From: Ignavibacteriales bacterium
GTDB taxonomy: Bacteria > Bacteroidota > Ignavibacteria > Ignavibacteriales > Ignavibacteriaceae
Reading direction: 5' to 3'
DNA length: 64,000 nucleotides
NCBI GenBank assembly: GCA_015709675.1
Contig: CP054182.1
Location: forward strand, 2,831,448-2,895,447
In this document: positions 14,112-64,000 of the stretch, one piece after another
Numbering within the stretch: the first letter of the stretch is position 1
How the letters are laid out: each line of letters starts with the position of its first letter
Position numbers and translations under genes: made by a program
Notes under the pieces: model-generated
Told to the model about the DNA's origin: nothing
The model's database searches: none
Seen by the model: the letters and a program-made list of their open reading frames with translations, nothing else

Positions 14112-14525
14112 TCAGATTTTAACACTTGCAGAATAGTTAATTCTGAGGCAGTAAGCCTTTCTGAGTTCCTGCTGAATATCGGTAACCATGCCCATATCAA
14201 CGTTTTTATCTATTCTCAGTGATACAATCACATTGGGAAGAATCTGACGTTTTCCGTACATGATGCTCTGAACTTCTTCGATTTTCACAACTGCATCATT
14301 TAACTGAATACGCTTGTCATTTCCAACCCAAAGATAAGATATCAAACGTTTATTCTCTACTTTTTCCACGGCTTTGGCTTCAGGAAGTGAGTATTTTACA
14401 AATACTTCCTGTTCCCTGAGCGTAGTAGTAACCATGAAGAAAAGAAGAAGAATGAATACGATATCCGACATAGAAGCGGTCGGGATATTGGCTTTTGACT
14501 GTGCGCGTTTTTTCTGAAATTTCAT
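14112..14525 (-). CDS. ExbD/TolR-family protein (second of pair)
   Basis: A 137-residue biopolymer transport protein: short cytoplasmic N-terminus, one membrane segment (about 20-40) with the proton-carrying aspartate in SMSDIVFILLLFF, and a periplasmic domain. With ExbB it forms a proton-driven motor that energises an outer-membrane or peptidoglycan-linked partner. It follows another ExbD gene by 14 nt and ends at a terminator. Unlike the right-end cluster, no TonB gene accompanies this motor. The paired ExbDs differ in length and periplasmic sequence, so they are not a recent duplication. Confidence 0.9.
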   Translation of the reverse strand: MKFQKKRAQSKANIPTASMSDIVFILLLFFMVTTTLREQEVFVKYSLPEAKAVEKVENKRLISYLWVGNDKRIQLNDAVVKIEEVQSIMYGKRQILPNVIVSLRIDKNVDMGMVTDIQQELRKAYCLRINYSASVKI

Positions 14526-14539
14526 AATCTACTGCTCCT

Positions 14540-15079
14540 TTAGGATCCTATCTTTTCGGGCTCAGCGATCGAGATAATAATCGGCACTTTTTCTCTTACA
14601 ACGCCCTGATCGTCAACGTTCAGTTCATTGTATTTTTTGCCGTATTTACCGAGTGAATATTCATCTCTTACTTCAAAGTATGAAAGTTTCACCTGATCGA
14701 GCGTCTGAAGATATTTATTATAAACTGTCTTCCTGTCAGTTTTAACAGAAACGATAAGCTTCTTGTTTGATGGAAGTTCAATTTTACTCTGAATCCGCGG
14801 TTTTAGATTATTTTTAATCTGTGGAATCGCGATGATCGCGCCATCCAGAAGCACATCACCGTTTTCATTAATAAGCAGAGCTGCCATTCTTTCTTTTGAA
14901 ATTTCAACTAATTGCTGCTCTTCCGGCGGAATATACTCCGGCAGAGTGAGACCGATACCTGTATCAATATCAATAGTCGTCGTAACTAGAAAGAACAGCA
15001 GAAGCAGAAAAGAAATATCCGACATGGAGGCGGTCGGAATTTCCGGTTCAGTTCTGGGTTTTCTATTTAAAATTGGCAT
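14540..15079 (-). CDS. ExbD/TolR-family protein (first of pair)
   Basis: A 179-residue ExbD. The membrane helix (about 17-37) carries the same TASMSDISFLLLLFFLV motif with its essential aspartate. The periplasmic part is about 40 residues longer than in the neighbouring ExbD and ends in a segment (NELNVDDQGVVREKVPIIISIAEP) not seen in classic ExbD. It lies 25 nt after exbB. Two unlike ExbD subunits with one ExbB suggests a heteromeric motor or two alternative assemblies. Confidence 0.9.
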   Translation of the reverse strand: MPILNRKPRTEPEIPTASMSDISFLLLLFFLVTTTIDIDTGIGLTLPEYIPPEEQQLVEISKERMAALLINENGDVLLDGAIIAIPQIKNNLKPRIQSKIELPSNKKLIVSVKTDRKTVYNKYLQTLDQVKLSYFEVRDEYSLGKYGKKYNELNVDDQGVVREKVPIIISIAEPEKIGS

Positions 15080-15104
15080 TTTTTAACTCTTAAGGAATAG
15101 TGCC

Positions 15105-15785
15105 TTATTTAGACTTAATTTCGTAGAGAGCATCAATCAGTTCGATTGAGCTTTCTTCCATATCAGCCACTAAACGGTCAATTCTTGAAACAAAATAGTT
15201 ATAAATTGTCTGAAGAATCATAGCTACAACCAGACCGAAAAGGGTGGTCAGCAATGCAACTGCGATACCGGTAGCAACGATGCTCGGAGAAATCTGGTTT
15301 GCTGCTGCAATAGCGTCAAATGATTCGATCATACCCTGTACCGTTCCGGTGAATCCAAGCATCGGTGCAATGGTGATACAGGTGTTAATCCAGATGAGTC
15401 CTCTTTCAAGGAAGCCCATTTCGATTGCACCATAAGCCATAACTGCTTTTTCAACAGATTCCAGGCCTTCATCAGCTCTGAGGAGACCGGCATAAAATAC
15501 TGAAGCAACAGGACCACGGGTGTTCATGCAAAGTTCTTTTGCCTGTTCAACTCCGCCAGCTTTAAGAGCTTCTTTGACTTTTACGATAAAGTTTTTTGTA
15601 TTGATAGAGGATCTGGTGAGAGTCCAGAATCTTTCAATTGAGAATGCTAATCCGATGATAAGACAGGCGAGAATAGGGTGCATAAAAATACCGCCTGCGA
15701 CATATTTTTCTGTGAGCCAGTTCATCGCACCACCCTGCTGGGCAATGAGATTGACTGAATTTACAAGGATTTCTCCAAACAACAT
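15105..15785 (-). CDS. MotA/TolQ/ExbB proton channel protein
   Basis: A 226-residue inner-membrane channel subunit. It has three membrane segments: about 30-52 (FMHPILACLIIGLAFSIERF), 125-150 and 170-195. The MotA/ExbB signature covers the last two (APMLGFTGTVQGMI, then SPSIVATGIAVALLTTLFGL). AGGAGG 9 nt before the ATG fixes the start. It is the first gene of a three-gene unit with two ExbDs that ends at a strong terminator. The 114 nt upstream hold its promoter but I cannot define one. Confidence 0.92.
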   Translation of the reverse strand: MLFGEILVNSVNLIAQQGGAMNWLTEKYVAGGIFMHPILACLIIGLAFSIERFWTLTRSSINTKNFIVKVKEALKAGGVEQAKELCMNTRGPVASVFYAGLLRADEGLESVEKAVMAYGAIEMGFLERGLIWINTCITIAPMLGFTGTVQGMIESFDAIAAANQISPSIVATGIAVALLTTLFGLVVAMILQTIYNYFVSRIDRLVADMEESSIELIDALYEIKSK

Positions 15786-49566: not shown

Positions 49567-52500
49567 TTACTTCAGGAACATCATCTTCTTAGTTGCAGAG
49601 AACTCACCTGCTTCGAGTTTATAGATATACAGACCGGTTGAAAGTTTTGTAGCATCAAAATTAACTACGTGGTTTCCTGCTTTAAGGGAACCGCTAATGA
49701 TGGTAGCAACTTTTTCACCGAGTACGCTATAAACGCTCAGCGTAACATTTGCATCTTTTGGAAGAGCAAACTTAATGGTGGTTGAAGGGTTGAACGGATT
49801 CGGATAGTTCTGAGCAAGCTCAAATACTCCCGGAATCTCAACGTTAACTTCAACTTCTGCTGAATAACTGAATGTTCCGTCAAAATCAATCTGTTTCAGA
49901 CGGTAGGTATATACACCAGGGGTTACATTTTTGTCAGTATAGGTATATCTGCTTAATTCAGCAGTATTGCCTTTACCTTCAACGAATGAAACTGAAGTGA
50001 ATGACTCACCTGCTGCTTTTCTTTCAATGCTGAAGCCGCTGTTATTTACTTCCGATGCGGTTGACCAGTTCAGAACAACATCGCTGCCTGAAATAGCTGC
50101 CGCAAATGAAGTAAGTTCAACAGGAACTTCCGCAGTTGTATGATACAGACCGAAGCCGTTATTTGTACCAAGTACAAATACATCAACGGTACCGTCAGGA
50201 TTGCGTCTTACTTCAAGGTCGCCGGTTCCGCCTGCATTGGAATTATTGCCCATAGTCGGGGTAATACCATATGTAAATGCATTGGCGAAATCACCTGCCG
50301 GAACTCCGACAACGCGGCCATTTTCATTGCCAGCACCATACTGATAGGTAGCAAAGTATTCTACACCTGCTTTTGAACCAACATAACGGATTGCGTTAGT
50401 ACCGGTAGCTACTACCGTTCCTGGCACTGTTCCGAGCAAGGTTCCATCTGCAGCATATCTCTTGGCACTGTTTCCGCCGGAATTCCAGTAGAAACCGCCG
50501 CCAGGGATCGGGCCGACTGCGGCTGAACCGCCTGCTGCACCATCAGAAAGGGTAATTGAATCAGGTAATGCATTAAATGCTCCGCCGGTCATTTTCCAGA
50601 TATATACTTTGCCAACACCTGCGGTTGCACTTGCAGCCCAGATTTCAGCGGTATTAGCTGAAAAATCACCAACAACGGTAATCTTGTCGCCAAGTCTTAC
50701 CAACTGTGCCGGTGCGTAATCAACAACTTTTACCGGAGCTGTAGCTTCATCATTCCACATATATACGCGGAAAGTATCCAGAACGGTTGTCCTCAGGTTA
50801 GCTGCAATTATTTTGCCGTCCATGGTAACACCTGCATCGTTCAGAGCAAAAGTACCACCAGCAATACCTGTAACATCAAGAATACCTGCGTCGTTACCGG
50901 TGATTGCATTGACTACCCGTACATTGAGGCCGGCGTTACGGCTAACAACATAGAGGCGCTGATTTCCGCCAACAACACCGTAACCAAATCCGCGTTCGGT
51001 ATTGCCGCTTGGTGAGAACCATGACGGAAGATTGTTTTTGTATTTGGATTTTTCCCATGAGGTTGTAAGCGCAGGAAGCTGCCATGCAACACCAACTGAG
51101 CGGATGAACCATGCTCTTTCGGTTGTAACAACAAGCGGGCTCCAGGTTTTACCAGTGTCAGCAGAAATATAGCTTCTGCCGGGAGTGGTCAGTGGTGAGT
51201 TATGAGCACCTAACGGGAACTGAATTTCTGAGTTGAATGTCAGAGATATCCAGTAATCTGTTCCTGCCTGGAATCCGGGGGCATCATCACCCAGCGGAAG
51301 TGTAACATAAGCACCGCCTGAGCTGAGATAATTTACGCCGCCGAATTTCTTCATATAAAGAAGCGGACCAGGAGCTGAAGTTGTTGCACCAGGACCCCAG
51401 ATACCAACCATGACGGAGTCAGAGCTGGCTTCGGTTCTGTAGTATGCATCAACGTTCGTGAGTTTCACATTTGCCTGCGCAGTGAATCTTACTGCACCCC
51501 AAAGTGAAATGTTATTTGTGCTGAATCCAATAAAAGTATTCGGCAGATTCTGACCATTGTCATATCTGTTTCTGATTGTTGAATCAGGATAAACCAGAGT
51601 TTTATGATTAGCACCCGTATTATTAAATGAATTAATCGTATCACCTTCAGCGGTAACAGTTACAACTGTTGATACGGTACCGCGGGTCAGAACGGTGGTT
51701 CCGATATTGACTGTATCAACAGATCCAGGTGCAACACCAGGACGATTTATCGGAGTACCATTAACCCCGGCAATGCTGCTGTTGAATACATAAGGAACAT
51801 TGGTTAAACCAGCATTCGCTATATATGCATCTAATGATACAGGAACATTTGCCTGAACGTTAAACGGAGTCGGACCCTGTCCTACAACCTGCAGTCCATT
51901 ATCTGTATAGGTATTGTTACCATAGATAATGTTTGTGCTGTTTTCCAGACCGGAGCGTTCTCCCGCAGGAAGCAGTGATGGATTTATAGCCAGCACTTCT
52001 TCACCCTTAACAAGTCCGTTTACTCCTTCTGACGGGAATACCGGAATTGCGTTAAGCTGTTTAACTTCGGCAACTGCATAGTCAACCGGTGGTACCTCAA
52101 CGATGGCAACATCATCAAGGAACAAATACCACTGATCAGCAAGGCTGTATGCCTGGAATCCTATATAATAATTACCATTTACAGGTACCTGGAAAGTACC
52201 AACACCCAACTCGTAGGTGGCATTAACAACATTCGGATGATCTGCAAGTACCGTATATAAACTATCCGGCACAGGAGCAGAACCGATTGCTACTTTTAGT
52301 TTTTCAGGATAGGTAGCACTCTGAGCTTTATAGTAATAAATCACTCTGTAAGTCTTTCCTGCCTGAAGTGTTGTTGCAGGAGCAATCAGCCAGTCGTTGC
52401 CGGGAAGAGTTCCGCTATAGTTGTAACGGGCACTGTTAGCACCTGAATTTGGTGAGCTGTTGCTCTTGATCCAGGTTGTGCCGCCGTTAACATCAACAAG

Positions 52501-55434
52501 CGTCCATCCGGTTGGCGGGAAGACACCTTCAAAACCTTCACTGTAAGGAAGTGAACTAACGGTAAATGGAGTAACAGTCAGAACACCTGAAACATTAGTT
52601 GTTCCGTCCCAGAAACCGCCGCCATTGGTGCTGTAACCGCCGTAGGTATACGGACCGTTCTGCAGCTGCCATCTGGAAGCATAGTAATAAGTGCCAGGAG
52701 CAAGATTTGCACCGATATCAGCCATATATTCGTCATTATTGCCCTGCTGGGTATTATATACTGCAGGCACCCAGGTTGTCCAGGTGTTCGGATTTGTGTT
52801 TGCGTTTGAAACACCAATCCAGACGGAAATGGTTGAATCAGGACCCGGGTTTGGAGTAACATTATTTTCCCAGCCCTGGGTATATACTGTAACCGTGTTT
52901 CCGGCAACAATATTAGCTGTCGCAGGCCACTGTAGGTTGTGCCAGTCCATGGTTATCTGCGGAACTTCTTCGATCACGATATCATCAAGACCGGTACCGT
53001 AAGCGCTGAAGCTTGCATTCGTCTGATCACGCCAGCGGAGAAGTCTTCCGTTGCCGGCATATGCAGCTAAATCAAATACTGCTTCTTCGTAAGCTGACTG
53101 AACAGCAGGCGCTGAAAGGAATCCAAGAGTTGTCCATGTAGCACCCATATCAGTACTTATTTCAAAGTAGGTTGTGTCCTGACCGACGATAAAAGGAGCT
53201 TCGTACATATATACGTTACCTTCATCATCAATCTTTTCAACCGGAGCAGGACGTCCTGCTGTAATATCATCATCTTTCCACCAGAAGGTGATTTTTGCAT
53301 TGGCAGGAAGATTTACTAAAGGTGTCTGAAGAATTGCACCATTTGTACCTGCTAAGTGATTATATGCAACCCTGGCAGCATAAGGAAGTGATTTTGCTTC
53401 AGTGCCTCTTCCCCAGAAATTACCGGGGTTATACCAGCCTGGAGGTGGGACAACACCACCGGTACTGTCAAAATTCTGTACATAAGGGAATGTAGTAATA
53501 GTGAAATCAACGCCTGAACCGCTAAGTTCGAGTGTATCAACAGTTCCGGCTGCATTATGCCCGACAATTACCACTGCGGATTTTGCACCGGTATCAGCGG
53601 GTGAAAATGCTACGGTGAAAGTAATACTCTGACCTGCAGTTACTGTGGCAGGATAAGTATTATTATCCACTTTTGTAAATGAACTTGCGTTTGAACCGGT
53701 AAGTGTTGCTCCGCTTACGACCAGGTCACCTGCGCCATTATTTGTAATGGTAAAGGTCTGAGCTGCAGATGTTGTTCCAGTCTGCAAAACTCCAAAGTCC
53801 TTAAATTCAGGAACAACTGAATAGACAGGATTAAGCGGTACTTCACCAATTTTAAAGTCGTCAATAAAAAGATCATTATCTGCATTCGACACAGTTGATG
53901 CAGCATAGAATCCGATTTTAATCTGACCAGTATATCCGGCAAGTGAGACTTTTTCTGTCTGACCGGTGTTCGAAATGACATTTGCTGAAGTATATACCTT
54001 TATCGTGTTAGCAGGCAGCCAGCTAACACCATTATCGGTAGAGACAACTACCGCAAGCGTATCATCAGGACCTAATGTTGCTGCCAATGAACCATTGTAA
54101 TTTGTAAGAGCCAGGTTAAATTCCACCTGTTTAACCGGGCTGTTAGAACCCAGGTCAATCGTCGGAGACGCTAACAAATGTCTTAGGGATGTACCAAAAA
54201 TGTTCACTCTGGCAGAACGATCAACCGGAGAGGTAACATTTCCAAAATCATCAGGACCCCACGTGGTATTGACAATTGCCATCGGATTGCCGTTTAGAAA
54301 TCCTGTATATCTTGCCCATCCGCCCGGTACCCACGCATCTTCAAAATCCTGAGTTGAGGCCATGTTAAAGTTTACAGATGCAGCGGCAGGATCAAAGGTG
54401 TAGGCTCCCACACCATTATTGGTAGCAAATGCAAAAATAGTAAATGTACCATTGCCGTTATCTCTGACAGCTACATCACCAGATGCGTTGGTGTTTGTAT
54501 TAGTGCCAAGACGAGAGGTTTGCGCAACCGGAACAGCAACAGAATCATTGATCACCTCAAGAATTCTGACTCTTTCATAAAATGATGTTGCTGTACCAAC
54601 GGTGGTAGTAACGCCGTTTTGAAAAATAGCAAGAAACTTACGTGCACCTGATTCAAAATAGCGGATTGCGTTTCCGTTTGTCGGAGCAAAGTCCGCATGA
54701 ACAACAGAATACAAAGTATTGTCTGCTTTGATTCTGCGCAAATTAGAGCCTCCGCCTTTTACCCAATAGCCATTAACACCATTATTGATCGGAGCTAATG
54801 AAGCAGCAGTACCGGATGATAAACCGGTTGCGGTTATAACTTCTCTGTTGAAGGTCGCACCGTTATCGGTGGTGGTAAATTTCACAATTTTATTATTGGA
54901 AGCAGCAACCGCATAAATTATAATTGAGTTATCTGCAGTTGAACCAACAACAGTAAATTTATCACCTAAGCGGAAAGCTCCTGAGTCCATCTGAGCCACA
55001 ACAACGGGGTCTGCGGCCTCATTCGCCCATTTGTATATTTTAAACGGGGTAGCGACAGCTGATGAGGTTACAAGATTAGCACCGAAGATTACTCCATCTG
55101 AAGAAACTTCTATATCGGTGAGTGTGAGAGTTCCGCCGGTTATTCCGTTTCCGGAAAGTACTCCGACAGAATCACCGGTTAGTGCATTTAGAATTACAGC
55201 TTTTGCGCCTCCTGTAACCGTTGCCACATAAAGGCGTGGGTTACTGTTTACAACACCATACCCTATACCGCGCTCATTATTAGCGGTTCCGATATAGGAT
55301 GGAAGTGAAGAGGTTAGCTGGGATTTTTCCCACAAGGGTGTCACCTGAGCGTTAACATTAATTGACAGAAAGCCTATCAATAATGTGAATATCAGGTACC
55401 ATCCTCCTGAGAAGCGACTCGTATATGAGTGCAT
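49567..55434 (-). CDS. 1,955-residue secreted protein with duplicated propeller-like region and T9SS type A sorting domain
   Basis: A large surface or secreted protein. The start at 55434 has GGAGG upstream; residues 1-29 are a signal peptide (cleavage at NVNAQ). A propeller-like region (about 33-345, opening WEKSQLTSSLPSY) recurs at about 1455-1775 (WEKSKYKNNLPSW); both halves share RLGDK(I/F)TVVG. Between lie three choice-of-anchor J-like segments (QDFEDAWVPGGW about 360; FDSTGGVVPPPGW about 652; FEGVFPPTGW about 965) and a choice-of-anchor D-like Ig region (about 540-650). A fibronectin-like module precedes the sorting domain at about 1875-1955 (NYPNPFNPSTTI). Function unknown, probably adhesion or binding of a surface ligand. 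Confidence 0.9.
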   Translation of the reverse strand: MHSYTSRFSGGWYLIFTLLIGFLSINVNAQVTPLWEKSQLTSSLPSYIGTANNERGIGYGVVNSNPRLYVATVTGGAKAVILNALTGDSVGVLSGNGITGGTLTLTDIEVSSDGVIFGANLVTSSAVATPFKIYKWANEAADPVVVAQMDSGAFRLGDKFTVVGSTADNSIIIYAVAASNNKIVKFTTTDNGATFNREVITATGLSSGTAASLAPINNGVNGYWVKGGGSNLRRIKADNTLYSVVHADFAPTNGNAIRYFESGARKFLAIFQNGVTTTVGTATSFYERVRILEVINDSVAVPVAQTSRLGTNTNTNASGDVAVRDNGNGTFTIFAFATNNGVGAYTFDPAAASVNFNMASTQDFEDAWVPGGWARYTGFLNGNPMAIVNTTWGPDDFGNVTSPVDRSARVNIFGTSLRHLLASPTIDLGSNSPVKQVEFNLALTNYNGSLAATLGPDDTLAVVVSTDNGVSWLPANTIKVYTSANVISNTGQTEKVSLAGYTGQIKIGFYAASTVSNADNDLFIDDFKIGEVPLNPVYSVVPEFKDFGVLQTGTTSAAQTFTITNNGAGDLVVSGATLTGSNASSFTKVDNNTYPATVTAGQSITFTVAFSPADTGAKSAVVIVGHNAAGTVDTLELSGSGVDFTITTFPYVQNFDSTGGVVPPPGWYNPGNFWGRGTEAKSLPYAARVAYNHLAGTNGAILQTPLVNLPANAKITFWWKDDDITAGRPAPVEKIDDEGNVYMYEAPFIVGQDTTYFEISTDMGATWTTLGFLSAPAVQSAYEEAVFDLAAYAGNGRLLRWRDQTNASFSAYGTGLDDIVIEEVPQITMDWHNLQWPATANIVAGNTVTVYTQGWENNVTPNPGPDSTISVWIGVSNANTNPNTWTTWVPAVYNTQQGNNDEYMADIGANLAPGTYYYASRWQLQNGPYTYGGYSTNGGGFWDGTTNVSGVLTVTPFTVSSLPYSEGFEGVFPPTGWTLVDVNGGTTWIKSNSSPNSGANSARYNYSGTLPGNDWLIAPATTLQAGKTYRVIYYYKAQSATYPEKLKVAIGSAPVPDSLYTVLADHPNVVNATYELGVGTFQVPVNGNYYIGFQAYSLADQWYLFLDDVAIVEVPPVDYAVAEVKQLNAIPVFPSEGVNGLVKGEEVLAINPSLLPAGERSGLENSTNIIYGNNTYTDNGLQVVGQGPTPFNVQANVPVSLDAYIANAGLTNVPYVFNSSIAGVNGTPINRPGVAPGSVDTVNIGTTVLTRGTVSTVVTVTAEGDTINSFNNTGANHKTLVYPDSTIRNRYDNGQNLPNTFIGFSTNNISLWGAVRFTAQANVKLTNVDAYYRTEASSDSVMVGIWGPGATTSAPGPLLYMKKFGGVNYLSSGGAYVTLPLGDDAPGFQAGTDYWISLTFNSEIQFPLGAHNSPLTTPGRSYISADTGKTWSPLVVTTERAWFIRSVGVAWQLPALTTSWEKSKYKNNLPSWFSPSGNTERGFGYGVVGGNQRLYVVSRNAGLNVRVVNAITGNDAGILDVTGIAGGTFALNDAGVTMDGKIIAANLRTTVLDTFRVYMWNDEATAPVKVVDYAPAQLVRLGDKITVVGDFSANTAEIWAASATAGVGKVYIWKMTGGAFNALPDSITLSDGAAGGSAAVGPIPGGGFYWNSGGNSAKRYAADGTLLGTVPGTVVATGTNAIRYVGSKAGVEYFATYQYGAGNENGRVVGVPAGDFANAFTYGITPTMGNNSNAGGTGDLEVRRNPDGTVDVFVLGTNNGFGLYHTTAEVPVELTSFAAAISGSDVVLNWSTASEVNNSGFSIERKAAGESFTSVSFVEGKGNTAELSRYTYTDKNVTPGVYTYRLKQIDFDGTFSYSAEVEVNVEIPGVFELAQNYPNPFNPSTTIKFALPKDANVTLSVYSVLGEKVATIISGSLKAGNHVVNFDATKLSTGLYIYKLEAGEFSATKKMMFLK

Positions 55435-55833: not shown

Positions 55834-55841
55834 TATTTTTG
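55834..55841 (+). promoter_or_regulatory. -7-like element upstream of the secreted propeller gene
   Basis: TATTTTTG matches TAnnTTTG and ends 9 nt before the ATG at 55851. A TTG at -33 is missing, so this is a weak candidate; if real, the transcript would be nearly leaderless. Confidence 0.3.
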
Positions 55842-55850
55842 TGTTTTCAA

Positions 55851-56717
55851 ATGTGCAGGTTTCAGATTTTTAGATTTTTTTCACTTTTCTTCTTGCTGCT
55901 TCCACTCTTTCAGGTGAATGGGCAGGATTCTGTTGATTCCGTGAGCAGGACAAATCTTGATTTCACTCCCCTGCTTGTTACCCGGAATCCGTCAGGATCG
56001 TTTTATCTGATTGATAAAAATACGCTTGAGGTTGTGTTATGTGATGCGGCCGGAAAAGAACTAAAAAGGGCTGGAGGAAGCGGTACCGGCTCATCGGGGT
56101 TTATTGACCCTGCCGAAATTATCTGGAGGGGTATGATGCTTTATGTACTGGACCGGGGTGCAAAATCGGTAAAACTATTTGACCGGTTTCTTAATTTTAT
56201 CGGAGAGAAAAAGCTTGACGGCATATTCGTGACCTCAAAAATCGCCGATCCTTCATCCCTGACCGTGAATGATTTTGGAGAGATTTTTATCTCCGACCGT
56301 CTTAACCACACAATCCTGGCAGCAGATCAGGCATTTAATGAGAGAAACGATATCTATTACATAGAAAATATCCCTGGAAAAAAGATGCAGTTTCCGGTAA
56401 GAATTATTTCGGATGGTGATTATGTGGCGGTAAAAGATTCCGCCGGTCTGTATCTTTTTGACAGATTTCTCAATTACATTAACTATACCCCGCTTCATAA
56501 GGAAGAACAGTTTGCGGGAATTCCTAAGGGCAGCTTATTACTAATTGAAAATAACACAATTAGGGTCAGCAAACTATCAGCTCCAGAGGGGATTCCGCGT
56601 TTATATGTGCTTCCGGATGAAAGAATTATCAGTCCGGTTGTTATACTTAACCGTCTCTATTATATTTCGGGCAACACAATTGCTTCAGTAAATCTGGATA
56701 CTCTTCTTTATGAATAA
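55851..56717 (+). CDS. Secreted NHL-like six-bladed propeller protein, function unknown
   Basis: A 288-residue exported protein from the ATG at 55851; an upstream TTG at 55839 is possible. Signal peptide at about 1-25 (cleavage at VNGQ). Short repeats of the type FDRFLNFIG, DRGAKSVKLFD and DFGEIFISDRLNHTI mark NHL-like blades of a beta-propeller. No catalytic motif is visible. It overlaps the next gene by 8 nt, and the three genes here are stacked as one unit, so it may form an envelope complex with the two membrane proteins. Confidence 0.72.
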   Translation: MCRFQIFRFFSLFFLLLPLFQVNGQDSVDSVSRTNLDFTPLLVTRNPSGSFYLIDKNTLEVVLCDAAGKELKRAGGSGTGSSGFIDPAEIIWRGMMLYVLDRGAKSVKLFDRFLNFIGEKKLDGIFVTSKIADPSSLTVNDFGEIFISDRLNHTILAADQAFNERNDIYYIENIPGKKMQFPVRIISDGDYVAVKDSAGLYLFDRFLNYINYTPLHKEEQFAGIPKGSLLLIENNTIRVSKLSAPEGIPRLYVLPDERIISPVVILNRLYYISGNTIASVNLDTLLYE

Positions 56718-57219
56718 TATAATTCACAAATTTTTTACTCCGGCTCTTGTGGTCGGGTTCGGACTCGCGGCCCTGCTGAGCGTTTCTATCATGCAGATGT
56801 TTTTCATTCTGGTTGTCCCGGCGGCCGGTTTTCTGGCTTCCAGATTTGAATTCCGCCTTCATCCTGAAAAAGGAGAGCGCCCGTTTCTATCCTCAATCCG
56901 GACCGGTATCGCCGCAGGCATCTATGCTGCTTTTTTTATGACCATTATTGAAGTGATTGTTACCATGATCTTCAAAACGAATAATTTTGTTGCACTTATG
57001 CCCGAAGCTATGAAAATAATTAAAGAACTTGGTCTGCCCGAAGCAGATCAGTCGGTCTCTCTCTTGAATAGTCTGATAGATGATATACAAAGGGACGGTT
57101 TTTCAGGTCTTTATACATTCATTTATTTTATAAGCAACTCGTTTAGCAATGCTATTTTCTGCCTGATCGGCAGTGTTCTTTTTGCATTTTCATATAAAAG
57201 AAATTCCGGAAACGTATGA
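56710..57219 (+). CDS. Polytopic membrane protein of unknown function
   Basis: A 169-residue protein with four hydrophobic segments (about 10-30, 32-46, 65-92 and 135-162) and a hydrophilic, Glu/Asp-rich loop (about 95-130: MPEAMKIIKELGLPEADQS). It overlaps the propeller gene by 8 nt and the following gene by an ATGA. I do not recognise the family; a resemblance to DUF4199-like Bacteroidota membrane proteins is possible but not supported by a motif. Confidence 0.75.
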   Translation: MNNIIHKFFTPALVVGFGLAALLSVSIMQMFFILVVPAAGFLASRFEFRLHPEKGERPFLSSIRTGIAAGIYAAFFMTIIEVIVTMIFKTNNFVALMPEAMKIIKELGLPEADQSVSLLNSLIDDIQRDGFSGLYTFIYFISNSFSNAIFCLIGSVLFAFSYKRNSGNV

Positions 57220-57521
57220 TAACCGCTTTTATATTCTTTGCCCATTTATTGTTTATCCTGATAATCTTTACAAAAAAATGGCAGGATGAAAACCTGACAA
57301 CCGCTTTTCTGAATGCAGGTCTTATTGCTATTTTATTCACGGTGGGGTGGTCAATTGCGGGGATACCAACCAAATATCTGATTGATCCTGAGGGATTCGG
57401 AATTTATTATGACAGAGATGCCATAACACTCACTTTGCTTACAATCGGGGAATATTTCTTTTACCGGATGTATTATCCGGAGTATTTTAGAAAACCTACT
57501 GAACCCGGTACGGGAACGTAA
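57216..57521 (+). CDS. Small membrane protein of unknown function
   Basis: A 101-residue protein with about three hydrophobic segments (1-18, 33-51 and 73-85). The ATGA overlap with the gene before it and the convergent 26-nt overlap with tonB are both visible. No known family is recognised. Its place in a three-gene unit suggests that it works with the propeller and the other membrane protein. Confidence 0.7.
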   Translation: MITAFIFFAHLLFILIIFTKKWQDENLTTAFLNAGLIAILFTVGWSIAGIPTKYLIDPEGFGIYYDRDAITLTLLTIGEYFFYRMYYPEYFRKPTEPGTGT

Positions 57522-58140
57522 TTACTGCTGTCTGAATAACTTGATTCTGCCTCGCGGGGAGCGGTTCAAAGCGCCACTGACGCAGTGATGTAATAGCCGC
57601 ATTTTCAAGACGGGTATCTGCCTTGGCAAGCAGAAAAATACTTCCTACGGTACCGTCAGGAAGGATGGTAAACCGTATCCGAATATCAATATTTTTGCTG
57701 ACTCCTTCCGGATATGCCGGCAGGATAAAACTGTAGATTTTCCTCTGCCCCATTCCTCCCCAGTCTATATCATAACCTGAAGAACCGCCGGAGTTCTGGC
57801 TGTTGCTGTTCTGGTTATTATTGGTATTTTTGTTCTCTTCCGGCTTCTTTTCATCCACTTTTTTTATGGATGGATCTTCAGGATTCTCCCCTGCTTTAGG
57901 CAGATTTACATCATCATTTTTTTCTTCAACCTGATCGGAAGATTTTTGTTCTTCTTCATTATTCAAACCGGGCACTCCGCTGAACATGGTGGAACCATCA
58001 CCGCCAAAACCGATTTCAATAAACTCCTGTACCTCTGTTTCTGCTTCTATGCGGTAAAAGAACAGGAAGAGAAAAAGCAAAAAATGAAAAAAGAGAGAAA
58101 TCGCAACCGAGCGCTGCCGCTCCTCAGCCCTTGTAGCCAT
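57496..58140 (-). CDS. TonB-family energy transducer
   Basis: A 214-residue protein spanning the envelope. It has an N-terminal membrane anchor (about 11-30), a Glu/Asn/Ser-rich linker (about 40-130) in place of the Pro-rich one of E. coli, and the TonB C-terminal domain (about 140-214: RIRFTILPDGTVGSIFLL, LENAAITSLRQWRFEP). It follows exbD by 3 nt as the last gene of the operon. It should link the ExbBD motor to an outer-membrane partner. Confidence 0.9.
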   Translation of the reverse strand: MATRAEERQRSVAISLFFHFLLFLFLFFYRIEAETEVQEFIEIGFGGDGSTMFSGVPGLNNEEEQKSSDQVEEKNDDVNLPKAGENPEDPSIKKVDEKKPEENKNTNNNQNSNSQNSGGSSGYDIDWGGMGQRKIYSFILPAYPEGVSKNIDIRIRFTILPDGTVGSIFLLAKADTRLENAAITSLRQWRFEPLPARQNQVIQTAVITFPYRVQ

Positions 58141-58143
58141 GGA

Positions 58144-58551
58144 TTAGTTCAGCCGGTCTTTTTCAGTTTCAATAATAAATTTATCTATTCCCGCGGAACG
58201 AGCTGCATCAATAACTTTTATTACCATCTCTATCGGAACTGTTTTATCTGCCCGGATAATCAGGTTATTATCTTTGTCAGCTGCTTTAATCATCGAAAAT
58301 TTCATCGGCAGTTCGCTTAATGCCGTCACCTCGGTCCCGATATATACAGTGCCATCATTGGTGATGGTAACCGAAAGATTGGAAGTGGTAAGCGGCTCAT
58401 TGCTTTTTGAACCGGGCAGTTTCACTTTTACTCCGGTCTGCATCACAAACTGCGAGGAAAGCAAGAAGAAAATCAGCAGAAGCATCACAATATCCGTCAG
58501 TGACGAAAAATTGAATGATGACAGCGGTTTGTTTTCAGTGCTGAACCTCAT
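58144..58551 (-). CDS. ExbD/TolR-family protein
   Basis: A 135-residue motor subunit: one membrane segment (about 16-38) with aspartate in SLTDIVMLLLIFFLL, then a periplasmic domain with the LPGSKSNEPLTTSNLSVTI region. It is 2 nt from exbB and 3 nt from tonB. It is one of three ExbD proteins in the window. Confidence 0.92.
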   Translation of the reverse strand: MRFSTENKPLSSFNFSSLTDIVMLLLIFFLLSSQFVMQTGVKVKLPGSKSNEPLTTSNLSVTITNDGTVYIGTEVTALSELPMKFSMIKAADKDNNLIIRADKTVPIEMVIKVIDAARSAGIDKFIIETEKDRLN

Positions 58552-58553
58552 GA

Positions 58554-59216
58554 TTATAATTCCATCTCAAGCTCGTCCTGGTCGGGAGGCAGTTCTTTTC
58601 CGGTGAGCGCTTCTTCAAGACTGTCAAGAACATCGGTGGAAATTACTTCCATATCATTTACCAGTTTGGTAATCTTTGCCAGAAAATAATTGTACATAAT
58701 CAGAGCGATAATACCGACACCAAGACCGAAAGCTGTTGTAAGAAGGGCTTCCCAAATGCCTGCGGCAAGATCACTCGGGCTGGCAGAACCCTGCAGATCC
58801 TGAATTTTCATAAAAGCGCCTATCATTCCAGTAACGGTTCCGAGAAACCCCAACAGCGGTGCAACACCTGAGATAGTTGCCAGAACGCTGAGGCCTTTTT
58901 CCAGTTTGGTAATTTCCTGTTTACCTGCTGTTTCAATTGCCTCTTTAACACGGTTGTGGCCAAACCGGACTTTACGAAGCCCCTTTCGAATCATGTTTGA
59001 GGCCGGAGTTTTTTCAGCCATACAAAACTGAATAGCACCGTCTATATCCTTCTTCTTAACCATTGAACGGATGGCGGCCAGAAATTTTGGTGCGTTTAAT
59101 CTCGCTTTTCTGATCACGAGATAACGGTCAATGGAAATTGCGACTCCTACAACTGAGGCGATAAGAATCGGCCACATGAGGAATCCGCCCTGGAAGAACA
59201 TGTCGAGTAAACTCAT
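58554..59216 (-). CDS. MotA/TolQ/ExbB proton channel protein
   Basis: A 220-residue inner-membrane channel subunit with membrane segments at about 10-32, 115-140 and 155-178. The MotA/ExbB signature is APLLGFLGTVTGMIGAF with the later AAGIWEALLTTAFGLGVG. It is 20 nt after the SPOR gene. Together with ExbD and TonB it makes the second proton-driven motor of the window. Confidence 0.93.
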   Translation of the reverse strand: MSLLDMFFQGGFLMWPILIASVVGVAISIDRYLVIRKARLNAPKFLAAIRSMVKKKDIDGAIQFCMAEKTPASNMIRKGLRKVRFGHNRVKEAIETAGKQEITKLEKGLSVLATISGVAPLLGFLGTVTGMIGAFMKIQDLQGSASPSDLAAGIWEALLTTAFGLGVGIIALIMYNYFLAKITKLVNDMEVISTDVLDSLEEALTGKELPPDQDELEMEL

Positions 59217-59236
59217 CGTATTCCTTTTTTATTTGC

Positions 59237-61093
59237 TCACTTTAATTTATTTGAATAATCTTCAGCTTCCTGAAGTGTCTTAAACTCTCCGACACGTACC
59301 CGGTACCATCTGCCTCTGCCAGGAATGCTGGCAGACTGCACATAAGCCGGATGGCCGAGTCTTTCTAAACGTGCTGCCTCCTTATCCGCAACAGCTTTAT
59401 CCCGCCAGCTAGAAACCTGAACCGTGTAATTATCACCTTCCCGGAAGATATTTCCTTTTACCAGCACCGAACCCGAAGCCGGTGTCTCTGGCTTTTGACT
59501 TATCACGGGAGCTTTCTGTTCCGTTGATGCCGGAGGCTTTTGTTCGGTAACTACAGGTTTTTCTGCAGGGGTAACCACCTGGTTTTCTTCCCGTTTTATG
59601 GTTACAACCGAATCAGGCTTTACACTCTGTGTGTTTTGTATCGGCACCGGCGGTACCGCAATTGAGTCAATGCCAAGCATCGGTATATCTGCAGGACTCA
59701 GCGCTTTTTTATAAGGATAGGTAATGGGAATAACATAGTCCCTTTCAATAACGGTAGCCACAATTGGCGGCAGTTCAAATCCGGTTGATTTAGGGAGATA
59801 TTCAGCGATAAAATCTGGAACTCCAAAGCGGTGTATATAAAGCGTGATGCCAACCGCTGCGACGAAAATCACTGAAAGCAGGGTCCAGATAATCGGCTTC
59901 TTCTGCTTTGCCAGTTTAGGAAGCTGTGTTTTTATCAGACTGCGCGGGTCAAATCCGGAATATTCATCTTCCTTGTTGAACTTTGGTTTCAGATTAATTA
60001 CGTCAGCAAGTTCGCCCGATTCCTCATCGTTTTCCCCCTCTGATTCCAGCCGCTTTCTTAAACTGTATTCATTTTCAAGATATGCTTTTTCTTCCGCCTC
60101 CCTGGCTGCTTCTCTAGCTTTTCTCCGCTCCTCCTCCTTTTTTTCGATCGGGTCAGGTATAGCGAAAAGAAAATTTTCGGCTATGGATTTCTTAAAGAGA
60201 GAATCAAGATCATTCTGCGGAGTAAAAGATGTAGGGTCAGGAGGAAGAAATATATCCTTCTGATTTAAGGTTTCCTCAGCCTCTAATTCGGATAAATCAA
60301 TTTGCAGTTCGCGGGTTCTGGATGAAACTGGTACAAATTCTTTTTCATCCTGTGTTATATCAAGGTTTGTGCGCGCAAGGTCATCAAAACTAATATCAGG
60401 CCCTGATTCAGCAGGTGCTTCTTCACCGCCGAAGTTCCACTCAGTAAGATCTGCCTCACTAAGTATATCCTCACTCTCCACCTCTTTTTTCCATTCAGCG
60501 CCGAATTCCCAGTCCATGGAATCAGCAGGTTCTCCAGAATCAGGATCAGATTCTTCAATGGCTCTCCATATATCCTTTTCAGAATCCTTCTGGTTTAAAA
60601 TTTCTTTGAGATCTGACACCGACAGATATGCTTCAATGGAATTGATGTCAATAATGGTGCCTGAGGTAAAAAGTTCTTCAGCTTTTTGCTCTAGAAATTC
60701 CCTGCTCTGATTACCGTTAAGCAGCAGAAATGCCTCTGTATCCCCCGCTGATTCAAGCGGTATAACCGGTTTATCGAAGCTCAGATTCATGAGATTATCC
60801 GCCTTTGATTCAACCGCAGCTTCTGCAGAAGGGAGATCAAAAAGATGTCTCGATGCTGTGAATGGTTCTTTTCCCTCAAAGAGTATGGCTTCAACGTAAT
60901 TGCTGACTGAGAGCTTCCCTGATATATTAACATGAACAGGCCGGAATTCGCCCAACTCATCAATAAAAAGTGATTTACCCCCCTCAATATGCTCCCGTAT
61001 ATACTCAAGGAAAAGCTCCATAAAGTCAACAGCCTGATAAACAGGGATGCCGATTTTTGAAGCAATATTTCTAATGAGTTCTGACTTGGTCAT
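59237..61093 (-). CDS. HU-like / transmembrane / SPOR fusion protein
   Basis: A 618-residue fusion from the ATG at 61093. The frame to 61183 would overlap the barrel gene by 77 nt. Residues 1-75 look like an HU/IHF-type domain (MTKSELIRNIASKIGIP, then GKSLFIDELGEFRP). An acidic, low-complexity region (about 90-390) follows, then one membrane segment (about 400-425), a Pro/Thr/Val-rich linker (about 460-545) and a SPOR domain (about 548-618: YTVQVSSWRDKAVADKEAARL). The predicted topology puts the HU-like head in the cytoplasm and SPOR in the periplasm on peptidoglycan. HU-like (CCDC81-like) heads on SPOR proteins are known in Bacteroidota. It may tie the cell wall to a cytoplasmic partner. Confidence 0.85.
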   Translation of the reverse strand: MTKSELIRNIASKIGIPVYQAVDFMELFLEYIREHIEGGKSLFIDELGEFRPVHVNISGKLSVSNYVEAILFEGKEPFTASRHLFDLPSAEAAVESKADNLMNLSFDKPVIPLESAGDTEAFLLLNGNQSREFLEQKAEELFTSGTIIDINSIEAYLSVSDLKEILNQKDSEKDIWRAIEESDPDSGEPADSMDWEFGAEWKKEVESEDILSEADLTEWNFGGEEAPAESGPDISFDDLARTNLDITQDEKEFVPVSSRTRELQIDLSELEAEETLNQKDIFLPPDPTSFTPQNDLDSLFKKSIAENFLFAIPDPIEKKEEERRKAREAAREAEEKAYLENEYSLRKRLESEGENDEESGELADVINLKPKFNKEDEYSGFDPRSLIKTQLPKLAKQKKPIIWTLLSVIFVAAVGITLYIHRFGVPDFIAEYLPKSTGFELPPIVATVIERDYVIPITYPYKKALSPADIPMLGIDSIAVPPVPIQNTQSVKPDSVVTIKREENQVVTPAEKPVVTEQKPPASTEQKAPVISQKPETPASGSVLVKGNIFREGDNYTVQVSSWRDKAVADKEAARLERLGHPAYVQSASIPGRGRWYRVRVGEFKTLQEAEDYSNKLK

Positions 61094-61106
61094 TTTGGAA
61101 AATACA

Positions 61107-62696
61107 TCAGAATTGTAATTCAAAACCCAGCCGGATATCGGCAGGTCTTCCGGGATATCCCTCCCAGTAACTGTTATCTGCACTCAGCAGATTATTAGCT
61201 CTCAGGGTAAGAAAACTCCCCTGACCTAAGAAACTAAGATAATAGCGCAGAGTCAGATTAAGATCAAAAAAGGAATCAGCCTTGTTCAGATTTGCTCTGT
61301 CAGTATATGGAGCGCTGTGGTATTCAGCACCGGTAATAAAATCAAAGGAGGAGTTAATCTTTCTGCCATAAAAAAGGCTGCCGCTTATGGATGAAACATA
61401 TGGCAGAAATTTATCAGTATCATCTTTAACTGAGGAAAGATTTACATGACCGTAGAGGAATCCCATCGGCCCTTCATGAAACTTTACATCAGCCCCAATA
61501 CTCATTACCGAGGCATCGGCAAATCCTGCTCTGAATACCCCGTCAGAAGTGTCTCTTAGAAAATAGTTCACTTGCTCTGTTTTACCACTATTAATGAAAA
61601 CTGATGCCTCAAAATAGTGTTTAAATCTGTATTTTGTTTCAAAACGGATATGGTTTATATGGTTTTCATACCTACTGAATGATGTATCCGGCACAAAAAA
61701 CTGTATCTCAGCCAGATTTTGCATCAGATCAACCCTTTGCCAACCCTGCTTATAAGTCAGCCCAAAACTCAGGGCCTCTGACAAATTAAAGCTCCCTTTT
61801 CCGTCAATAAAAATACCGTTATTCTCCCCTGCTTTCACCGCTCCGCCTGAGACACGAAGACTGAATTTACCAGGAGTTACAATCGCAAAGGAAGGTCCAA
61901 TTCTGTAATCTCCCTGGCTGAGATCGTTAATGGAAACGGACCCCAGCTCAGCATCGGCGCCAATAACCACTTTGGAGAAAGAAATAAACCCGCCGAGATT
62001 TAACTTTGTGACAGCACTCTCGGCATTAAACTCTTTTACTGCTGCAGAGGCAACCTCAGCTGAAAGAGAGAATCCTGAACCTCCGGAAAACATCTTTCTG
62101 GCACCGGCGGATACGGAATAAAGATTCAGATTCCGGTTCTTAAAAGATGTATCATCCGTATAAAGTTTTCTGCTGTGAGAAAAGAAGCCGGCGTCTGCAT
62201 CAACTATCAAGCCACTAAAAATTCCGGATTCAGCTCCGGTTGTGTAAGATGAACTGAGATCGAAGCTGTATATATTTTTCCCGTTATTAGGTTCATACTC
62301 ACGGATATTCTTAAGTGAGAGTGAAGGTGATAACGTAAATCTTCCCATCTGTAAAGTATAGCTCCCCGTCATCTCCGGAATGGTGAGATTTCCGAATGAA
62401 ATAGAAAAAATACCAGGATAGACGGCAACTGAATCCTTCTTGAAAGTCACGATTGTTTCCGGTGTGCTGATCTCACCTGCCGAAAACTCTTCTGCTTTAT
62501 ATGGAGGATTAATGAATTCCTCTGATAGCGCGGAGATAACATCAGGTTTCATTTTTTTCGCCGGAGGAAATGTAATCTGATCTTTACCGGTAATTACAAA
62601 GTCAGGAAGTTCCACGTTGGATTTTGGTTCATCCTGTGCAAAAAGAATTCCAGTTAAAAGAAAACCAAGCAGAAAAATGCTTAAAGATGATTTCAT
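61107..62696 (-). CDS. Outer-membrane beta-barrel protein (TonB-receptor-like barrel without visible plug)
   Basis: A 529-residue outer-membrane protein. After a signal peptide (about 1-20) comes a short segment, VELPDFVITGKDQITFPP, that resembles a TonB-box-like start. The rest alternates amphipathic strands and ends with Phe (RLGFELQF), as barrels do. The barrel resembles TonB-dependent receptors without a full plug domain, but this is a reading of pattern, not a domain hit. It overlaps the TPR gene by 4 nt and is 13 nt from the HU/SPOR gene, so it is likely the outer-membrane partner of the downstream ExbB/ExbD/TonB motor. Confidence 0.75.
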   Translation of the reverse strand: MKSSLSIFLLGFLLTGILFAQDEPKSNVELPDFVITGKDQITFPPAKKMKPDVISALSEEFINPPYKAEEFSAGEISTPETIVTFKKDSVAVYPGIFSISFGNLTIPEMTGSYTLQMGRFTLSPSLSLKNIREYEPNNGKNIYSFDLSSSYTTGAESGIFSGLIVDADAGFFSHSRKLYTDDTSFKNRNLNLYSVSAGARKMFSGGSGFSLSAEVASAAVKEFNAESAVTKLNLGGFISFSKVVIGADAELGSVSINDLSQGDYRIGPSFAIVTPGKFSLRVSGGAVKAGENNGIFIDGKGSFNLSEALSFGLTYKQGWQRVDLMQNLAEIQFFVPDTSFSRYENHINHIRFETKYRFKHYFEASVFINSGKTEQVNYFLRDTSDGVFRAGFADASVMSIGADVKFHEGPMGFLYGHVNLSSVKDDTDKFLPYVSSISGSLFYGRKINSSFDFITGAEYHSAPYTDRANLNKADSFFDLNLTLRYYLSFLGQGSFLTLRANNLLSADNSYWEGYPGRPADIRLGFELQF

Positions 62697-64000
62697 TTCA
62701 GTTTCCTCAGTTTTGCCTGTGCTTCTTTACCATACTCATCATCCGGATGCTTGGCAAGTACATTTTTATACATTTCTCTTGCCTTATTTTTATCTCCGGA
62801 TTTTTCATATAACTCTCCCAGCCGGAGGTAACTCTTGGTAACCCATTCATCATATAATGAAAAGATATTTGTAACCCTTACAAACGCGGTAACTGCCTCA
62901 CTGCTTCTCCCTTCTGCGGTATAGACAAGCCCCAGAATATACTGTGCTTCAGCTGCAAGGTCATCCGTTCTTTTCGAAGTAACTTTCAGCAGAACTTCAG
63001 CAGCTTTTTTATAACGTTTATTCATCATTTCAAGACGGCCAAGTTCAATCTTTGACTTATCACCAAACAGATTATCTGCATAAAATACTGAGGTTTCATC
63101 AAAAAGGTCATAGGCACCTCCTATATCATTCATCACAAGCAAAAGCTTAGCCTTTGTGTAAAGCAGTTCAGGATATCTGGCACTTTTGGTAAAATTACTC
63201 ATGACGGAGTTAATCACTTTTAGTGCTTCTCCGTTATTATTATCTGCCTGATAAAGAGATACAAGCTCCACCACAGCAGAAACGGTCACTTCTGCCGAAG
63301 GGTAACGGTCAACCAGAGCCCTGAATGTCTGCTTTGCTTCCAGTACCATTCCGGTATTGCGGTAACTTTTTGCAATCCAGAAGAATGCATCCGCGGTGAG
63401 CGGAGAACCGCTGAACAAATCAATAAATTCGTTGTAATACGTTATTGCACTCTGATAATCAGCATTTGTATAATAAATCTCTCCTTTTTTAAGGAATAAT
63501 TCATCTGCAAAATCTCTTGCCTTATACTGTCTGGCATAACGGTCAATAATCTGCGCGGCGCCTGCTAAATCACCTTTTGCTATATAACAATACTGTATAC
63601 CATTTATTGCGTCAAATAAATAGGAACTTCCTGCATGAGAGGTTATGATTCGGCTGTAATAAGCGATGGATGAATCGTAACTTCCCAGGTTAAAGTAGGA
63701 GTCACCGATGGAATAAAGCACCATAGGAATAAGCCGTGAGCGAGGCATGGTATTCAGCATAAGAAGATATTTGTCTATGGCGGCGCTATAGTTACCCTGT
63801 TGAAAATGAATCCAGCCGGCAAGATAGACAGCATTTTCACCATACTCACTTCGGGAATAAAGCGCGGAGACTGAATTAAGTTCGGTAAGTGATTCTTTAA
63901 TTTTACCCGCCCGGTAATAAGCAAGAGCAAGCTGATAACTCACATAATCCGCCCGGACGGATTTACTTTTTCTCACAAGAATATCCCGGTAAGTTCTTAC
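62693..64000 (-). CDS. Tetratricopeptide repeat protein, N-terminus outside window
   Basis: The frame is open from the stop at 62693 to the right edge (435 codons visible), so this is the C-terminal part. It is made of TPR units about 34-38 residues apart, such as GENAVYLAGWIHFQQGNY, SYFNLGSYDSSIAYYSRI and LRLGELYEKSGDKNKAREMYKN. The arrangement resembles YbgF/CpoB-like or BamD-like periplasmic scaffolds. It is the leftmost known gene of the operon on the minus strand in the window. A GTG start inside the frame at 63976 is not the true start because the frame extends beyond it. Confidence 0.88.
   Translation of the reverse strand, partial: VRTYRDILVRKSKSVRADYVSYQLALAYYRAGKIKESLTELNSVSALYSRSEYGENAVYLAGWIHFQQGNYSAAIDKYLLMLNTMPRSRLIPMVLYSIGDSYFNLGSYDSSIAYYSRIITSHAGSSYLFDAINGIQYCYIAKGDLAGAAQIIDRYARQYKARDFADELFLKKGEIYYTNADYQSAITYYNEFIDLFSGSPLTADAFFWIAKSYRNTGMVLEAKQTFRALVDRYPSAEVTVSAVVELVSLYQADNNNGEALKVINSVMSNFTKSARYPELLYTKAKLLLVMNDIGGAYDLFDETSVFYADNLFGDKSKIELGRLEMMNKRYKKAAEVLLKVTSKRTDDLAAEAQYILGLVYTAEGRSSEAVTAFVRVTNIFSLYDEWVTKSYLRLGELYEKSGDKNKAREMYKNVLAKHPDDEYGKEAQAKLRKLK

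Follow-up and report, generated by a model that had tools for sequence, protein, structure and literature searches.

A six-gene trans-envelope operon found in Ignavibacteria and widely in Bacteroidota is a candidate counterpart of Tol-Pal

The closest described relatives of the system considered here are Tol-Pal (TolQ-TolR-TolA-TolB-Pal-CpoB/YbgF) and the Ton system (ExbB-ExbD-TonB), which acts on outer-membrane receptors such as FhuA and BtuB. In the accessible portion of a 2025 survey, no pal gene was detected in Bacteroidetes, the PorE protein was proposed as an outer-membrane tether and further tethering systems were expected (PMC12204202). Here, a six-gene operon is described from a 64,000-nucleotide stretch of an Ignavibacteriales bacterium genome (contig CP054182.1; this whole stretch is termed the window). 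The operon encodes a giant tetratricopeptide repeat (TPR) protein, an outer-membrane barrel, a protein with an HU-like head and a SPOR domain (HU/SPOR), and ExbB, ExbD and TonB homologues. We consider, with a probability of roughly 0.55, that it would be a proton-driven trans-envelope machine standing in for Tol-Pal in outer-membrane tethering and constriction at division. A Tol-Pal counterpart is favoured because of the gene order, the plugless barrel, the joint loss of TonB and its putative binding motif on the barrel, the pattern of a histidine in TonB, the distribution of Pal and an upstream gene common to the two systems.

A preliminary description of the window had claimed six tightly packed envelope genes, and six open reading frames (ORFs) are indeed present on the minus strand at 57496-64000, with neighbours overlapping or lying 2-20 bases apart (Table 1). 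Coordinates are positions in the window unless a locus label is given; in labels, L stands for a locus, G for a genome (G000 being the window's own) and f for a family. The order is TPR, barrel, HU/SPOR, ExbB, ExbD and TonB. The gene limits first proposed needed some revision: the TPR gene runs past the window end and so appears there only in part (full length 989 amino acids, L004:6693-9662), and the HU/SPOR gene most likely starts at ATG 61093 and not at GTG 61183, the resulting 618 residues being the length of the L057 orthologue.

Conserved synteny in relatives had been named beforehand as a test of the proposal, and the six-gene order was found to be conserved. When named genomes were scanned with the TPR alignment, 80 loci were obtained, with Ignavibacteria, Melioribacter, Chlorobiota and Bacteroidetes among the titles. 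All six genes were in order in 50 of these, 19 loci lay at a contig end, seven lacked only exbB-exbD, three lacked a recognized exbD, and one (L077) was broken after the barrel. Such counts refer to recognized genes, between which small ORFs may intervene, and ORF picking may skip overlapped genes, such as exbD in L105. In a sample of 149 genomes of the class, the barrel was matched in 125 (at 1e-3), the TPR protein in 121 (at 1e-30, a few perhaps being other TPR proteins) and TonB in 108 (at 1e-6). The HU/SPOR search, with a query that began five codons 5' of the ATG, matched 90 of the 149, mostly in the SPOR part among the matches listed. Twenty loci were fetched from that search and 18 came from the window's taxonomic order; all 18 carried TPR, barrel, HU/SPOR and TonB in sequence, with both exbB and exbD in 16 (the exceptions are L037, without either gene, and L043, without exbD). 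In G009, from the same taxonomic order, the motor and TonB have been lost.

Class and phylum loci were selected by barrel match, and the proportions that follow therefore hold for barrel-bearing genomes. The 112 class loci represent 111 of the 125 barrel-positive genomes and 20 families. The TPR gene was the next recognized gene before the barrel in 109, separated by at most 250 bases in 91 of them and by more in 18 (f9, f17, L282), mostly with a small ORF between. TonB was recognized in 90 loci, exbB and exbD came after the barrel in 47 loci, and the complete set of six was in order in 34, from seven families. Two TPR places each were seen in G003 and G024. Across a phylum sample of 296 genomes, the class barrel alignment matched 250 at 1e-10. 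In 20 phylum loci taken from the stronger matches, the TPR gene preceded the barrel in 18 (L339 and L347 having one intervening ORF) and a SPOR or HU-CCDC81 protein followed in 16, the HU-CCDC81 profile having been trained on four of the same 20 loci; exbB and exbD were present in 13 and TonB was recognized in nine. The arrangement is not due to chance. Since TPR, barrel, SPOR and motor genes recur across the phylum loci, the operon is not special to Ignavibacteria, and the window holds one member of a set spread widely in the phylum.

The likeness to Tol-Pal noted in the preliminary description is borne out by the closest NCBIfam models of the motor, by a YbgF match and by a common upstream gene. 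The ExbB homologue scored 101.8 bits with the TolQ model (cut-off 221) vs 75.8 with the ExbB model, both under cut-off; the ExbD homologue scored 56.6 with TolR (cut-off 127.3) vs 51.1 and 50 with the ExbD models, all under cut-off; and the TonB homologue scored 31.6 with TolA (under cut-off) and 29.7 with tonB_Cterm (over cut-off). The TPR protein matched tol_pal_ybgF (TIGR02795) at 287.8 bits (cut-off 90.1), as nine stretches of the 989-residue repeat protein, and the TPR protein of a second motor locus (L006) also passed this cut-off. No match to TolB was found among the operon proteins, no whole-genome TolB search having been made, and Pal (TIGR02802) was over cut-off in none of the 149 class genomes (two of 14 controls were over). 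The proposed replacement of TolB and Pal by the barrel and the SPOR protein agrees with these results, and the finding that had been expected to speak against it, a complete tolQRAB-pal operon doing the same job, did not emerge, with no Pal over cut-off in the genome or the class. Sub-threshold OmpA-domain matches were present in 137 of the 149 genomes; in the window's own genome they fell in frames of 382-822 amino acids, none beside an ExbB gene.

At the phylum level, Pal was over cut-off in 62 of the 296 genomes, all f32 among the matches listed, and barrel matches in f32 were weak or absent (best 5.0e-16). Such complementarity of barrel and Pal was sought inside the class as well and is absent there, because f7 and f14 are without the TPR protein (1e-30), a strong barrel and Pal over cut-off alike. 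A tol-pal operon was present in six of the eight f32 Pal loci fetched, the other two being lone Pal copies; in one (L360), TolQ, TolR, TolB, Pal and YbgF were over the NCBIfam cut-offs and TolA just under. An identity of f32 with Chlorobiota would fit, tol-pal being documented for that group in the accessible part of the 2025 survey (PMC12204202). Directly before tolQ in the six tol-pal loci lies a gene of ~ 530 amino acids with a TIGR00297-like C-terminal part (L360:3656-5239). A homologue (for example L053:15839-17329), in part a shorter form of ~ 270 amino acids, stands before the TPR gene of the operon in 14/14 loci of f2, 6/6 of f12, 2/2 of f13 and 1/5 of f1, with identities to the f32 gene of 35% over 486 columns (L042) and 34% over 487 (L271). 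It is absent from the 20 phylum loci.

The barrel itself gave no Pfam and no NCBIfam match, and homologues elsewhere in the phylum gave weak, sub-threshold matches to receptors in both collections. An AlphaFold2 model built with 63 sequences had 22 strands from residue 95 onwards (mean predicted local distance difference test score, pLDDT, 84.6; predicted template modelling score 0.74), preceded by a low-confidence stretch. In a Foldseek comparison with the PDB, TonB-dependent receptors made up the best 50 hits listed (BtuB 1nqg, E 4e-16). VIA-align superposed residues 91-529 on FhuA 158-714 with Z 23.4 and a root-mean-square deviation of 2.7 over 410 residues, and on BtuB 134-594 with Z 22.8 and a deviation of 3.3 over 381 residues. 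No plug domain was seen: some 70 residues before the strands are predicted to be disordered and no Pfam plug match was obtained. The protein is thus predicted to be a TonB-dependent-receptor barrel without its plug.

The disordered N-terminal tail carries the Ton-box-like motif ELPDFVITG, in which L30, P31, F33 and G37 are invariant in the 63 sequences. At the same place, PEITIVGK occurs in f19 and f23 and EEVVVTRD in part of f5, both of which we take to resemble classical Ton boxes. A position-specific scoring matrix of the box was trained on the 18 loci of the window's own order, applied to 94 others and compared with each locus's own shuffles at 0.01. The median score was 37.4 in the 72 loci with an adjacent TonB vs 22.7 in the 22 without. 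The box was lost or degenerate in nine f11 loci, two f13 loci, G009 and the second copy in G044, all without an adjacent TonB. It was kept without an adjacent TonB in five f17 loci and G148, with a TonB found elsewhere in the genome except in G092, and also in three loci (L252, L257, L260) where the contig stops shortly past the barrel. On the TPR tree, TonB and the box each change three times, jointly, and the three independent pairs go in the same direction (3/3, p 0.25), with box states set by eye, f17 and G148 scored as TonB-present since most of their genomes carry TonB elsewhere, and the three contig-end loci left out. On conservation and joint loss together, the motif is judged to be a Ton box with predicted binding of TonB. 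Because G009 and G010, in which the operon TonB was not found, keep other TonB_C proteins and yet have a lost or degraded box, the partner of the box appears to be the TonB of the operon itself. In G044, there are two TPR-barrel copies (L241 and L201), one with TonB and the other without TonB and box.

A barrel of the TonB-dependent-receptor type with a Ton box would also be expected of a dedicated transport or export system, in which a single substrate or polymer would pass through the energised barrel, the TPR protein would guide it in the periplasm and the SPOR protein would only position the system; TPR-plus-barrel pairs export polysaccharides in other bacteria (AlgK/AlgE, BcsC). However, the barrel is plugless, and no enzyme, permease or SusD-like gene is conserved in the operon among the loci listed. 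The wide conservation in the phylum, the SPOR partner and the upstream gene common with the tol-pal of another family also speak against transport, which we regard as unlikely.

In E. coli TonB, Ser16 and His20 touch ExbB and the histidine is required for activity, according to the accessible part of the source (PMC12215075). The corresponding Ser15 and His19 of the operon TonB are nearly invariant in 15 sequences. The transmembrane histidine is present in 48/48 loci with adjacent exbB-exbD vs 18/42 without, and the full Ser-x3-His motif in 43/48 vs 6/42. Four families (f8, f15, f16 and f20) have neither adjacent motor genes nor the histidine and retain TonB, with a box above chance except in f16; this combination suggests a passive tether in these lineages.

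TonB_C was matched at four other places in the genome, which seem to represent three proteins, with scores of 60-77 bits vs 33.9 for the operon TonB. Given these other TonBs and the 26 plug matches in the genome, the operon TonB would be a dedicated transducer. The opposite view, in which the motor genes are the cell's housekeeping Ton motor and the barrel, TPR and SPOR genes are functionally unrelated neighbours, draws on the fact that exbB-exbD-tonB is the usual Ton set, that Ton genes serve many receptors and that the genome has 26 plug matches. It is improbable in view of those other TonB_C places, of two ExbB loci besides the operon (three in all) and of G009 and G010, where the box has decayed beside surviving TonB_C proteins; the simpler view that the six genes are just a Ton locus was set aside because other TonBs and ExbBs exist. 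None of the three ExbB loci is near an OmpA-domain gene. The second motor locus (L006:2171-8522; G000:C1:2380618-2386969) encodes a 1048-residue TPR protein, a 476-residue transmembrane protein, ExbB and two ExbD; the transmembrane protein, which had no NCBIfam match, presumably is DUF4159-like. The third, at 14112-15785 of the window (L005), has ExbB followed by two ExbD, and no TonB or Pal was seen adjoining.

A SPOR protein with an HU-like head had been proposed for the third gene. The SPOR domain was clear, while the head conformed in part only, its arm being shortened and its fold match weak. Pfam Bac_DNA_binding matched residues 6-60 with 27.4 bits (cut-off 22.4), ending at profile position 55 of 90. 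The AlphaFold2 model of the head (pLDDT 73) has an HU-like order of helices and strands, and in place of the long DNA-binding beta-arm a short hairpin (48-56/66-74). Foldseek gave HU/IHF-type proteins throughout the best 50 listed, none under E 1e-3, and no VIA-align Z value exceeded 4.0, an unrelated methyltransferase sharing the top place. Since most of the DNA-binding arm is missing from the model and the fold match is weak, DNA binding by the head is doubtful, and a role as a normal nucleoid protein was rejected on the same two grounds. With the CCDC81 model, the head scored 13.5 of 35 bits, under cut-off. Elsewhere, L055 (f17) has a full HU match (profile 1-90), and f12, f13 and f17 have an extra small HU gene in the operon, lying before HU/SPOR in f12. 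The protein after the barrel in L341 matched HU-CCDC81_bac_1/2 (PF18174, PF18175) and SPOR (PF05036), all over cut-off; that in L346 had both HU-CCDC81 domains over or at cut-off and SPOR just under. The idea of HU-CCDC81/SPOR proteins reportedly comes from a 2017 paper on the HU superfamily. In six of eight loci fetched from f7 and f14, a small HU gene adjoins a long SPOR gene, with no TPR-barrel or motor (L234:7109-9519, L237:7255-9422), and the HU/SPOR unit may work alone in these families.

Our model of a Tol-Pal counterpart is as follows. ExbB and ExbD, assigned to family by sequence, would form an inner-membrane motor, to which the TonB-like protein would couple through its Ser-x3-His motif. 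TonB would bind the plugless 22-strand barrel at the Ton box of its flexible periplasmic tail, as the motif, the structural model and the joint losses suggest, and a pull on this tail would bring the outer membrane inward. A scaffold for the TonB-barrel link may be provided in the periplasm by the giant TPR protein. HU/SPOR would anchor the assembly to peptidoglycan, and septal placing is probable because denuded glycan at the septum is the ligand of SPOR domains in known proteins. Its armless head more likely makes a contact with protein or nucleoid than acts as a classical DNA-bending head. Where exbB-exbD and the histidine have been lost, the remaining parts may act as a passive tether. A broader evolutionary account is more tentative, and we give it a little less than an even chance: that Bacteroidota replaced Tol-Pal, partly at the same chromosomal place, with a receptor that lost its plug and became a force handle, on whose Ton box a dedicated motor pulls and which HU/SPOR links to the septal wall, several lineages later having lost motor and histidine to leave an unpowered tether.

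Several observations weigh against a Tol-Pal counterpart. Four of the 20 phylum loci consist of TPR and barrel only. The parts of the operon are separable into two modules, as TPR-barrel-TonB occurs without SPOR in f5, f19 and f23, and the HU/SPOR module occurs without TPR, barrel or motor in f7 and f14. The joint losses number only three, with box states set by eye, and a sign test on three cannot reach significance. Moreover, nine of the 72 TonB-bearing loci failed to beat their box shuffles at 0.01, four degenerate f11 boxes did beat them, and G092 retains the box with no matching TonB found in that genome. The link between histidine and motor is blurred by the 18 loci that keep the histidine without an adjacent motor, and the tree pairs for these characters gave 3.1 in the same direction, 3.9 with no difference and 0 opposite. 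The upstream gene common with tol-pal is missing at the window's operon and from four of five other f1 loci, and f32 does have some weak barrel matches. Finally, f27, f45 and f49 have neither the barrel nor Pal over cut-off, and the two systems together therefore leave part of the phylum uncovered.

A surface-motility or secretion motor like Agl-Glt of Myxococcus (a gliding machine with a motor, TonB-like arms, TPR proteins and outer-membrane barrels), or a type IX secretion accessory, would use the same kinds of parts, and the TPR protein scored below threshold with PorW/SprE (147 of 250 bits) and GltE (25 of 225), but no type IX gene was recognized in the operon and the phylum-wide conservation together with SPOR speaks for a housekeeping function. 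This explanation is improbable.

Table 1. Features of the operon in the window, with strand and supporting match or model
Feature	Position	Strand	Evidence
Giant periplasmic TPR protein, window part	62693..64000	-	Pfam TPR_6 115.9 bits (window part), one of many TPR families matched
Predicted plugless TonB-dependent-receptor-like outer-membrane barrel, 529 aa	61107..62696	-	AlphaFold2 model, VIA-align
Ton-box-like motif VELPDFVITG, residues 28-37, directly after signal peptide	62586..62615	-	
Single-pass HU/SPOR protein, 618 aa with start at ATG 61093	59237..61093	-	
HU-like cytoplasmic domain, residues 1-101	60791..61093	-	Pfam PF00216 27.4 bits, AlphaFold2
HU/SPOR single transmembrane helix, residues 400-419	59837..59896	-	Read from sequence
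SPOR domain (peptidoglycan-binding family), C-terminus	59240..59437	-	PF05036 54.2 bits, cut-off 21
ExbB/TolQ-family proton channel, 220 aa	58554..59216	-	PF01618 MotA_ExbB 118 bits
ExbD/TolR-family stator subunit, 135 aa	58144..58551	-	PF02472 97 bits
TonB/TolA-family force transducer, 214 aa, Ser15-x3-His19 in transmembrane helix	57496..58140	-	PF03544 TonB_C 32 bits, cut-off 24.6

A further TPR gene, of 253 amino acids, lies upstream of the operon in the genome. At the other end of the operon, a convergent block faces it at 55839-57521, a position that the block retains in most of the complete loci from the taxonomic order; it encodes a 292-residue protein with a sub-threshold NHL match, a DUF4199-like protein of 169 residues and a 101-residue membrane protein. 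Beyond this block, a secreted protein of 1955 amino acids is encoded at 49567-55434, the tail of which we take to resemble a type IX secretion sorting signal.

Tol-Pal is not recognizable in most of a large phylum, with bacteria of gut, sea and soil, and the operon makes the question of what takes its place testable: it offers six candidate genes, a predicted contact of the TonB C terminus with the ELPDFVITG tail, and clear phenotypes that can be screened for. If the model is true, a transporter fold that is very common in outer membranes would here have been put to a new use, the receptor barrel without its plug serving as a mechanical anchor. In the openly licensed literature, with subscription papers outside its scope, no account of the operon was found and no paper tying HU-CCDC81/SPOR proteins to it; the terms 'SPOR' and 'Ignavibacter' are absent from the accessible main text of the 2025 survey (PMC12204202).

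As far as the accessible text goes, PorE is a proposed answer to the same gap left by missing tol-pal, but it is a single lipoprotein with TPR, TolB-like and OmpA-like parts, with no barrel or SPOR described there (PMC12204202). The vWA force transducers that accompany TolQ and paired TolR in that text likewise combine a proton motive force-driven motor with a TPR gene; the transducer, however, ends in a vWA fold and resembles the second motor locus, L006, and not the operon (PMC12204202). The HU-CCDC81/SPOR proteins of Bacteroidota (PF18174, PF18175, PF05036) find their likeness in the proteins after the barrel in L341 and L346, whereas the HU part in the window consists of one shortened domain that stays below the CCDC81 cut-off. 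With the Ton system, the operon has in common ExbB-ExbD-TonB, a predicted 22-strand barrel of FhuA/BtuB fold and an N-terminal Ton-box-like motif, but its barrel is plugless and kept with TPR and SPOR genes, and its TonB is divergent from the others of the genome. The likeness to Tol-Pal lies in a proton motive force-driven motor nearest TolQ/TolR, an SHLS-type transducer, a YbgF-like TPR protein, a peptidoglycan-binding partner and, in other families, the upstream gene common to the operon and the tol-pal of f32. In place of TolB and Pal, the operon has a plugless Ton-box barrel and an HU/SPOR inner-membrane protein, together with a TPR protein of ~ 1000 amino acids.

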